DNA from: Fibrobacter succinogenes
Lineage (GTDB): Bacteria; Fibrobacterota; Fibrobacteria; Fibrobacterales; Fibrobacteraceae
DNA length: 61,051 nt
NCBI GenBank assembly: GCA_902756345.1
Contig: CACVQR010000014.1
Location: 1-61,051, forward strand
Direction of reading: 5' to 3'
This document shows positions 23,646 to 36,777 of the stretch, in pieces. Within the stretch, counting starts at the first letter, position 1, and every line of letters begins with the position of its first letter. The translations under genes were made by a program, and so were the position numbers. A model generated the notes under the pieces. It did no database searches. It was not told the DNA's origin and saw nothing but the letters and a program-made list of their open reading frames with translations.

Positions 23646-23708
23646 TTCCTCGATGGGCTCTATCGACACTTCGTGTCTCCAGAGTGACAATCGAACAAGA
23701 GCAGCAGA

Positions 23709-24920
23709 ATGAGCAGCAAGGCGATGGCAAGAATTGGGTGGATTGACGAGTTCAAGGGATTCGTGTTGTTGCTTGTGTGCCTTTATCACGTGGAGCAGGC
23801 CTTTCCGCAGGCGCAAATGGGGATGTTGCACCTGAACGCGCTCCGTATGTCGGCCTTCTTCTTCATTTCGGGAATGCTATTCAGTACGCGACGCTTCCCC
23901 GATTTCAAAAGTTACCTTGTTCACAAAACCCGCGTCTTGCTCATTCCCTACATTCTGCTTTCGCTGCTGTTCTTGGCCCTAGATCCGGTGCTGTACAATT
24001 TCGATTTATTCCCGAAAGCGCCCCGCATGACCATCATGAACATCAAGCCCGAAATTGCAGGCGTATGGGATTATATCTACTGGAACCTCGCAAAAATTTT
24101 CGTAGTAGGGAAATCTTCCATCGGGTCGGGGCCGCTGTGGTTCGTGTTTACGCTGTATTCAGTGAGCCTCATGTTTTATAGTGTGCAATGGGTTGCAATT
24201 CACTTTTTTTCGCAAACGAGAACGGAGATGCCGCATCAAGTGCGGCATGACAATAAGAAGGCCGAGAAGACAGAGAGCGTAAGCAAATTGTTTATCGCAG
24301 TCTTCGCAATCATAAGCCTCGCAGGTGGTTGGCTCCTGTACAAGAATCACGTTCGCCTGCCGTTAGGAATCGAACGCGATCTGACAGTACTATTCTTCTT
24401 TGCTTGCGGCTGGCTGAGCAAGGAACCTATTCGCAACACTCTATGCGGGAAAGGGAAAAAAGGCTTTCCTTGGAGTCTTGTGGTCGCCACTTCCATCACA
24501 ACATTCATTCTCTATGCCGCATTCGAAATTCCAAATCCTGATTTCAGCATCATGAACAACACCCTCGGAAAATCACTCCCGATATTCATCGCCAGTTCCT
24601 TCTTCGGCATCGCGGGCCTTGTAGCCGCCTTCATTCTCGCCGACAAACTCCCGAATATCGCCCCCATCCGCATCATCAAGGGAATCCTGCGCAACATCTC
24701 GCGCAACGCACTCGTGATTCTCGCGGCTCACTGGTATATTCTGTTGATCATGCGCCTGCTCTTCCGCGACACATTCAACCAACCCGGGATCGCCTACTTA
24801 TCCATCGCCATCGTAACGGCAGGAGTCATCGCCGCCATTCCGCTATTCCGGTGCAAGCTCTACAAGTTGCTCGGCAAGCAACCCGCCAGCGTCCGCGAGA
24901 GTTTAAACATCAGAGATTAA
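23709..24920 (+). CDS. Acyltransferase 3 family membrane protein with a repeat-encoded insert
   Basis: 403 residues, about 10 membrane segments. The start IGWIDEFKGFVLLLVCLYHVEQAF has the family's catalytic His region, followed by LRMSAFFFISGMLF; such proteins O-acylate surface sugars or other exported molecules. Residues 172-183 (TEMPHQVRHDNK) come from a 33-bp palindromic element (24221-24253) and sit in a predicted loop between membrane segments. The same element occurs in uvrB. The gene converges on the FISUMP lipoprotein gene, 16 bp away with no terminator. Function in surface glycan acetylation is inferred from family only. Confidence 0.8.
   Translation: MSSKAMARIGWIDEFKGFVLLLVCLYHVEQAFPQAQMGMLHLNALRMSAFFFISGMLFSTRRFPDFKSYLVHKTRVLLIPYILLSLLFLALDPVLYNFDLFPKAPRMTIMNIKPEIAGVWDYIYWNLAKIFVVGKSSIGSGPLWFVFTLYSVSLMFYSVQWVAIHFFSQTRTEMPHQVRHDNKKAEKTESVSKLFIAVFAIISLAGGWLLYKNHVRLPLGIERDLTVLFFFACGWLSKEPIRNTLCGKGKKGFPWSLVVATSITTFILYAAFEIPNPDFSIMNNTLGKSLPIFIASSFFGIAGLVAAFILADKLPNIAPIRIIKGILRNISRNALVILAAHWYILLIMRLLFRDTFNQPGIAYLSIAIVTAGVIAAIPLFRCKLYKLLGKQPASVRESLNIRD
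24221..24253. repeat. Intragenic palindromic element, short form
   Basis: Core ATGCCGCA-TCAAG-TGCGGCAT, a perfect 8-bp stem, within a 33-bp unit that starts AACGGAGATGCCG. It is read in frame in the acyltransferase gene as TEMPHQVRHD. The uvrB copy (36579-36665) has the same two halves, in the same reading frame, split by 54 bp. Confidence 0.8.
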
Positions 24921-34423: not shown

Positions 34424-34490
34424 AGCGAACCAAATATAAAATTAAAAACAAGCCTTTTATTAATTGCTAATTTTTCATTATTCATTTTTC

Positions 34491-34524: not shown

Positions 34525-36777
34525 ATGGCTCGCGCACGCAAGACAATTACACCTGACCCGTATGCAAAACCGATAGCGAAACCGCTACCGCCCGAAAAAA
34601 GTTTGCCGGGAAAGTTAAAGCAGTTCCAGTCGCCGACACGCGCGAACTTCGAACTCGTGAGCCCCTATGGGGCAGCGGGCGACCAGCCGAAGGCCATCGA
34701 AGAACTGACGGAAGGTTTCAAGCACGGTGAACAGTTCCAGACGCTGCTTGGCGTGACAGGTTCCGGCAAGACGTTCACCATGGCGAACGTCATCAAGAAC
34801 GTGGGCAAGCCGACGCTGATTTTGACGCACAACAAGACGCTCGCGGCGCAACTCTACCAGGAATTCAAGGCGTTCTTCCCGCACAACGCGGTGGAATACT
34901 TCGTGAGCTATTACGACTATTTTCAGCCCGAAGCGTATATTCCGCACACGGACACCTTCATCGAGAAAGACGCGAGCATCAACGACGAAATCGACAAGCT
35001 CCGCCTGCGCGCCACCGCGAACTTACTCACCCGCAGGGATGTGATTATTGTCGCCTCCGTGAGTTGCATCTACGGTTTGGGAAGCCCCAGCGAATATTTT
35101 GATTTGATGGTTCGCATCAAAAAGGGTGACGTTTACGACCGCGACAAGATCCTGCACGACCTGGTGCGAATCCAATACACGAGAAACGATTTCAGCCTGG
35201 AACGCGGCAGCTTCCGCGTGCACGGCGACGTGATTGAGATTCACCCGAGCTACGACGAAGAAGGCCTCCGCATCGAACTTTTCGGCGACGAGGTTGACAG
35301 GCTCGTTCGCTTCAACATCATTACCGGCGAAGTCACGCAGGAAATGGACGAAATGACCATCGCTCCGGCGAAGCACTTCGTGACGAAGGAAGAAGGCCGC
35401 GCAGGAATCTTGCAGCGCATGCAGGTGGAACTGACCGAGCGCCTTGCGGAACTCGACAAGGAAGGCAAGGTGCTGGAATCGGCCCGCCTTTCGAGCCGCA
35501 CCCGCTACGACATGGAAATGATTCGCGAGACCGGCATGTGCAGCGGCATCGAGAACTACTCCCGCATTATCGAGAACCGCGCCCCGGGTACGCGCCCGTT
35601 CACGCTTATCGACTACTTCGGCGATGACTGGCTCCTGATGGTGGACGAATCGCACGTAAGCATTCCGCAGGTGGGCGGCATGGCCGAGGGCGACAAATCC
35701 CGCAAGACAACGCTCGTGCAGTACGGATTCCGCCTCCCCTGTGCCCTCGACAACCGTCCGATGAACTTTGCCGAATTCGAGTACATGTACCCGAAGCAGG
35801 TGCTTTTCGTGAGTGCCACCCCCGGCGATTACGAACTTACCAAGACCGGCGGCGTCGTTACCGAACAAATTAACAGGCCGACCGGGCTTCTGGACCCGAA
35901 AATCGAGATGTTCCCCATCAAGGGCCAGATGGACGTGCTCCTGTACCGCATCGAGGAAGTGGTCAAGAACGGCGACCGCGTGCTCGTCACCACACTTACT
36001 AAAAAGATGGCGCAGGACCTCACCGACTTCTTCGTGGAAGCGGGCATCCGCGCACGTTACCTGCATAGCGACATCAAGACGCTAGAACGCCACGAACTCA
36101 TCCGGGGCTTGCGCACTGGGGAATTCGACGTGCTGGTGGGCATCAACCTGCTGCGCGAAGGTCTGGACCTGCCCGAAGTGAGCATGGTAGCGATTCTCGA
36201 CGCCGACAAGGAAGGATTCCTGCGCAACTACAGGAGCCTCATCCAGACCATGGGCCGCGCGAGCCGTAACGTGAACGGCACGGTGCTTTTGTTCGCGGAC
36301 AACATGACCGACAGCCTCGACAAGGCCATCACCGAAACCGCCCGCCGCAGGGCCGTGCAGGAAGAATTCAACAAGGAACACGGCATTACGCCGAAGTCCG
36401 TGACCCGCAAGCTGGAAGACGACCTGAGGATCAACGACCCGCTGGAAGAAGAATTCGGAGTTCAGAATTCGGAATTCGGAATTGATGACGAGGATGACGA
36501 AGAAAGCCTCGGCATTCGCCCGATGGAACCGCTACAGCCTTCGAGCAAGACCAAACGGAAGAAAAACTCCGGTAAGGGAACGGAGATGCCGTCCCCGTTC
36601 CGAGGATCATATCCACTAAGCAGCAAAGCTGCAAGTGGCTATTGTCATCAAGTGCGGCATGACAAGTCCGGGACAAGTTCGCTAGAAGACCTGGAGCGCC
36701 AGATGAAGGAAGCCGCCGCGCGCCTCGATTTCGAGGAAGCGGCGCGGCTTCGCGACATTATCCGCGGTATGGAATAG
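34525..36777 (+). CDS. uvrB: UvrABC excision nuclease subunit B with repeat-derived insert
   Basis: 750 residues against the usual 660-690. UvrB is the damage-verifying helicase-like subunit of nucleotide excision repair. [17 protein letters not shown] and [10 protein letters not shown] (Walker A, about 75-84) start the core; [12 protein letters not shown] is the beta-hairpin; [23 protein letters not shown] and TMGRASRN are helicase motifs; [23 protein letters not shown] is the C-terminal UVR motif that contacts UvrC. The extra length lies between the core and UVR motif: residues 643-653 come from a GAATTCGGA array, and 686-713 from a palindromic element with an inserted hairpin. Both stay in frame. 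No ribosome-binding site is visible at the ATG. Confidence 0.96.
36451..36483. repeat. GAATTCGGA repeat array inside uvrB
   Basis: GAATTCGGAGTTCAGAATTC followed by GGAATTCGGAATT, read in frame as [11 protein letters not shown] in the linker before the UVR motif. The same words occur between genes at 34491, 39968 and 50021. Confidence 0.75.
36579..36665. repeat. Intragenic palindromic element with nested 54-bp insertion, in uvrB
   Basis: AACGGAGATGCCG (36579-36591) and CATCAAGTGCGGCATGACAA (36646-36665) are the two halves of the 33-bp element seen whole at 24221-24253. Between them lie 54 bp (36592-36645) with their own hairpin CCACT-AA-GCAGC-AAA-GCTGC-A-AGTGG. Both pieces are multiples of 3, and the reading frame is kept: GTEMP, 18 extra residues, HQVRHDK. 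Confidence 0.8.

Follow-up and report, generated by a model that had tools for sequence, protein, structure and literature searches.

TGTC-tagged palindromic hairpins read in frame in re-occupied protein linkers of Fibrobacter

Small palindromic hairpins are dispersed through the genomes of the genus Fibrobacter, and one of them is read in frame within the membrane acyltransferase gene that begins above. Very probably, these are CGTC/TGTC-tagged REP hairpins that insert in frame into genes and repeatedly re-occupy tolerant flexible linkers. We base this reading on the identity of the repeat, the covariation of its stem, its in-frame location, the existence of insert-free orthologues, the parallel occupation of the same linkers, and a difference in hairpin content between close species. 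The analysis started from a stretch of 61,051 nucleotides of Fibrobacter succinogenes DNA (hereafter, the window), whose genome is designated G000.

The in-frame unit of the acyltransferase gene

Positions 24227-24251 of the window read GATGCCGCATCAAGTGCGGCATGAC, with a perfect 8-bp stem, a 5-nt loop and a TGTC tag (Table 1), and this is the single full copy of the hairpin unit in the whole window. Folding of the unit gave -10.5 kcal/mol versus -3.0 +/- 1.3 for shuffles (z -5.6), and the acyltransferase ORF (23709-24920) translates across it in frame (...RTEMPHQVRHDN...). Sequence, folding and ORF thus confirm what an earlier note on this DNA had described, i.e., a palindromic repeat with a perfect 8-bp stem lying in frame in a membrane acyltransferase gene. 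EMPHQVRHD corresponds to residues 173-181, in a hydrophilic loop (mean Kyte-Doolittle value of -1.3 over residues 165-195) that is directly followed by a hydrophobic segment at residues 191-209; structure prediction from the single sequence had a pLDDT of 44, too low for use. Directly 5' of the gene, at 23659-23689, we also observed an intergenic TCTATCGACACTTCGTGTCTCCAGAGTGACA that resembles the hairpin repeat in the loops of L062, L064, and L065.

Table 1. Coordinates of the features in the window
Feature	Position	Strand	Basis
Host gene, Acyl_transf_3 (PF01757) membrane acyltransferase, 403 aa	23709..24920	+	ORF, Pfam
Palindromic insert (TGTC-tagged hairpin), in frame, read TEMPHQVRHD(N)	24221..24253	+	sequence, copy search, translation, folding
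5' stem arm ATGCCGCA	24228..24235	+	sequence, folding
Loop TCAAG, the most frequent loop in the hairpin family	24236..24240	+	sequence, 96-copy set
3' stem arm TGCGGCAT	24241..24248	+	sequence, folding
Unpaired TGTC tag (+ strand: GACA) adjoining the hairpin foot	24249..24252	-	sequence; tag definition from PMC3733652
uvrB, second in-frame host gene of the window, 750 aa	34525..36777	+	ORF, Pfam
AATTCGGA/GTT-type repeat, in frame, first UvrB linker	36452..36483	+	repeat family comparison
Composite element (54-nt core flanked by hairpin arms) in the UvrB linker that directly precedes the UVR motif	36579..36664	+	
54-nt core within the UvrB hairpin loop	36592..36645	+	

Among 30 acyltransferase orthologues, only that of G003, a close relative, has the insert in common with the window. 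Short loops devoid of it were found in other orthologues (e.g., L076, from a relative, and L078-L083), as the earlier note had proposed to look for, and further loops host other repeats: GCTGAACCGAGTTCAGC-ATGACA in L058; a different stem of the same hairpin family, in the same frame, in L063; and GTCATTCTGAGC...GAAGAATCC-type forms, in either orientation, in L062, L064, L065, L068, L070, L071, L073, and L075 (repeat labels were assigned by eye). On a gene tree built without the loop, the loop states require about 10 changes. L055, L056, and L063 share both the hairpin family and its frame, and their placement in a single clade was rejected (p-AU 5e-46). Filled and empty orthologues are separated by more than the 36-bp unit alone (~23 residues in the acyltransferase), and the G000/G003 pairs resolved neither an exact insertion junction nor a target duplication. 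Since the orthologues lack the peptide or hold other repeats at the same place, TEMPHQVRHD is, on this sequence comparison, not native to the acyltransferase; conservation of the peptide across distant acyltransferases, the outcome that the earlier note had set against itself, was not seen among these orthologues.

A dispersed hairpin family and its kinship with known repeats

The window's genome was searched by pattern, with the reversed pattern serving as a control. This analysis uncovered 10 copies with up to 3 mismatches, and a looser degenerate pattern gave 40 raw matches, ~35 of which were judged by eye to be true hairpins; both controls returned 0. The palindrome thus belongs to a dispersed repeat family and is not a chance one. 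Across the genus, a strict pattern identified 1,968 copies, distributed over all 80 Fibrobacter genomes (median of 18 per genome, range 1-114), with 1 match for the reversed control in the same 80 genomes. Elsewhere in the phylum, any copy at all was present in only 18 of 87 other genomes, and high copy number within Fibrobacterota is limited to the genus Fibrobacter. At the 4 stem pairs that the pattern leaves unfixed, 367 of 384 cells were Watson-Crick compared with 185 +/- 8 with shuffled partners, in a sample of 96 distinct copies taken from the matches listed. An Rfam search of the hairpin loci yielded nothing at gathering score.

Most G000 copies lie outside ORFs with a known domain (L001, for example, is in no long ORF); intergenic and genic calls were made from ORFs and Pfam only, and several of the relatives are MAGs. 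L013 had been considered as another in-gene copy and was dropped from that count because its ORF has no Pfam domain. When the six reading frames of the 96 copies were examined, one always contained a stop, a second did so in half of the copies, and four were usually open. Several of these open frames, and either orientation of the hairpin, are represented among the copies within conserved genes, which fits random insertion followed by selection; this was the count of reading frames that the earlier note had suggested. In addition, tagged hairpins occur in frame in serine-rich linkers of Fib_succ_major proteins (L031, which is under the curated cut-off, and L049), and the hairpin copies of L004, L006, L007, L008, and L010 are found within longer repeated intergenic mosaics, with some copies near contig ends.

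The exact 25-mer is present in the isolates Hoeflea halophila, Pseudovibrio exalbescens (four copies in one stretch), and Psychroflexus planctonicus, as well as in MAGs labelled Chloroflexi, Ignavibacteria, Gastranaerophilales, Coriobacteriia, Nitrospira, and others; MAG labels may err, and the isolates are the firmer cases. A repeat confined to Fibrobacter was ruled out by this cross-phylum scan.

On sequence grounds, the unit fits the superfamily of CGTC-tagged REPs (Di Nocera, De Gregorio and Rocco 2013, PMC3733652). The tag, which in the superfamily is CGTC and often altered to TGTC or CCTC, is TGTC here and TGTC or CGTC in other copies. The superfamily stem of 8-9 bp, with AT in the first two positions, corresponds to the 8 bp of ATGCCGCA/TGCGGCAT and of most matches in a strict scan of five proteins (see below), and the loop of 4-5 nt corresponds to TCAAG, with 4 and 5 nt dominating that scan. 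Like the superfamily repeats, which are sometimes found inside genes, including uvrA and uvrB, and have no dedicated transposase (PMC3733652), the Fibrobacter copies are multiple, dispersed, and mainly intergenic (most of the ~35 lie outside domain-bearing ORFs), and no dedicated transposase flanks them (no PF01797 in G000, and no family hairpins at six Y1 loci of relatives). Three features set them apart: whole linkers are re-occupied across the genus, some copies are composites that enclose a conserved core, and the unpaired tail is CTCC (the reverse complement of GGAG) rather than CCA. Since most, and not all, superfamily tails fit CCA (PMC3733652), the CTCC tail does not exclude membership. 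Fibrobacter is unmentioned in the main text of that study. REPs have been described at about the same recB site in two Xanthomonas species (PMC3733652), and re-occupation of one site therefore has a precedent.

The earlier note had likened the unit to the palindromic elements of Rickettsia (RPEs) and had taken it for an independent system of Fibrobacter. The parallel is of the right kind, as RPEs also are palindromic repeats in frame in conserved genes (here, those for the acyltransferase, UvrB, HrpB, and the APH kinase), and RPE-4 and RPE-6 have been assigned to the CGTC REPs (PMC3733652); RPE units, however, are given as 105-146 bp (PMC2229807), compared with ~36 bp here. Independence did not stand, because the 25-mer spans many phyla and the anatomy fits the CGTC-tagged superfamily. 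RAYT (TnpA_REP)-mobilised GTAG REPs resemble the unit in having a tetranucleotide tag beside a hairpin, a high copy number, and an HUH-nuclease model, but the tag here is TGTC and not GTAG or GTGG, and G000 has no RAYT gene (no Y1_Tnp). Neisseria dRS3 is akin, having been assigned to the CGTC-1 REPs (PMC3733652), although the CGTC-1 loop has 4 nt where the present unit has 5, and the Neisseria elements are mostly clustered.

Linkers of other proteins and the composite element of UvrB

Besides the acyltransferase, in-frame copies with the same pattern are hosted by UvrB, HrpB, a UvrA-like protein, and an APH-fold kinase. In UvrB, the two linkers close to the C-terminus hold repeats that vary from species to species, and HrpB, the APH-fold kinase, and the UvrA-like protein each have at least one re-occupied linker. 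The strict scan of the five proteins for tagged perfect hairpins found 46 in 34 of 133 ORFs and 0 in the reversed-sequence control; given that some sequences in the set are closely related, 46 should not be read as the number of independent insertions. These hairpins mostly cluster at the same linker positions (in the UvrA-like protein, 8 of 9 matches fall at residues 508-510 of the reference). Other repeat types, namely GACGAAAG and AATTCGGA tandem units and CCCTTCGACAAGCTCAGGG (UvrB and UvrA-like protein), fill these linkers too, and the linkers are thus tolerant sites in general. Two further observations concern such repeats. Linkers of UvrB and of the UvrA-like protein contain in-frame GACGAAAGACGAAAG heptamer repeats (L096, L097, L107, L308, and L309), and the AATTCGGAGTTC-type repeat of 36452-36483 recurs outside uvrB at 34490, 39960, and 50020, as well as in the linker of the G000 UvrA-like protein (L310).

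That halves of the acyltransferase peptide also appear in UvrB proved correct (TEMP at 36580 and HQVRHD at 36646, within the ORF 34525-36777), and each half is one arm of a single hairpin, the arms being 54 bp apart. The UvrB orthologue of G037 has a plain hairpin in the same place with similar flanks. The core occurs at 6 places in G000, and the matches listed put it at 48 sites spread over 21 of the 80 Fibrobacter genomes; no match was obtained in the phylum outside Fibrobacter, and none was found in viral contigs, phages, or plasmids. Nearly all readable core copies sit between the arms of a tagged hairpin, whose sequence is much less conserved than that of the core. The arms covary with one another, giving a mean outer stem of 5.3 bp versus 3.5 bp with shuffled partners in a set that omits six divergent copies. 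Modelled folding suggests a three-way junction for some core copies, and comparison of the core with Rfam gave no match at gathering score, only weak ones nearby and far under it. The composite might represent a distinct structured mobile element, i.e., a three-way-junction nucleic acid whose conserved ~55-nt core lies in the loop of tagged hairpins, either placed there by specific insertion or with the short hairpins as its deletion products; we regard this as rather unlikely. Further apparent nested insertions, with a second short segment in the loop of an in-frame hairpin, were noted in L106, L098, and L274.

Turnover, alternative origins, and mobilisation

A comparison of G003 with G000 covered 23 G003 copies (21 in the stretches compared, the other two being those of the acyltransferase and HrpB). 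Six of them share a site with a G000 copy, one with a different stem; in one more region (L287/L011), the cluster is arranged differently; and 16 had no counterpart among the compared G000 loci, which is an upper bound because ten G000 matches are without a locus. The G003 hairpin in the UvrA-like protein is absent from G000, which has a AATTCGGA-type repeat in the same linker. At the shared intergenic site L292/L017, the two genomes have different stems, each self-complementary.

Could such diversity arise with few new insertions? Homologous recombination may have swapped linkers between species, so that most of their diversity would reflect the exchange of old alleles. Indeed, UvrB linkers depart from overall similarity (G002, which is 97% identical, has no hairpin, whereas G037 has one with matching flanks), and repeat labels are scattered among close acyltransferases. 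Yet the repeats dispersed between genes recur in the linkers, several distinct families occur at one site, and exchange accounts for the spread of alleles rather than for their origin, leaving recombination as the main source an improbable account. The hairpins might instead be immobile, having formed in place in fast-evolving linker DNA where replication template switching perfects quasi-palindromes and yields covariation. Stem covariation can also be obtained in this way and does not by itself separate such correction from selection on structure, and the self-complementary but different stems at L292/L017 would fit. However, the tag and loop beside the stems are conserved, distant phyla have the identical 25-mer, and a uniform tag and loop is not what an origin in place would produce; we consider this origin very unlikely. 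Retention of the hairpin because it serves the mRNA or the peptide, e.g., in transcript stability or regulation, would agree with its strong fold and with the belief that most superfamily repeats are transcribed (PMC3733652), but is highly improbable when different repeats, oriented either way and read in several frames, interchange at the same site and are missing from some orthologues. A TEMPHQVRHD native to the acyltransferase with a merely coincidental palindrome, for which its presence in G003 might speak, is as good as dismissed by the orthologue comparison, the other orthologues examined having no insert, and by the same DNA lying outside long ORFs in G000 (e.g., L001).

In-frame insertion into re-occupied linkers, the reading that we favor, would involve REPs of the CGTC/TGTC-tagged superfamily scattered mostly between genes, with a hairpin now and then landing within one. 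Since four of the six frames are usually stop-free, an insertion whose net length keeps the frame would add ~10-12 residues. Insertions in folded regions would be lost through selection, and those in flexible linkers would be tolerated, with the same linkers being refilled by different repeats in different species; this tolerance would be why the acyltransferase loop, the two UvrB linkers, and those of HrpB, the UvrA-like protein, and the kinase have been filled repeatedly. We infer neutral tolerance of the inserts rather than benefit.

The hairpins probably move in single-stranded form, and we speculate that an HUH (Y1)-type nuclease mobilises, or once mobilised, them in trans. A profile search of G000 for Y1_Tnp (PF01797) found none. 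Across the genus, Y1_Tnp is present in 27 of 80 genomes and bears no relation to hairpin copy number (p = 0.60), and no family-pattern hairpin lay beside the Y1 genes at six inspected loci of relatives. A resident Y1 transposase was accordingly rejected as the mobiliser, there being none in G000 and copy number being unrelated across the genus.

How CGTC REPs move is a question that the literature states as open (PMC3733652). If the composite element of UvrB is what the structured-element reading proposes, tracking its core could reveal the missing mobiliser of these REPs. With ~2,000 strict copies that differ between close species, and with at least five proteins having re-occupied linkers, the genus Fibrobacter offers natural full, empty, and differently filled alleles. 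With such alleles, both the agent that moves the hairpins and a possible role of selfish DNA as raw material for protein linkers become testable.
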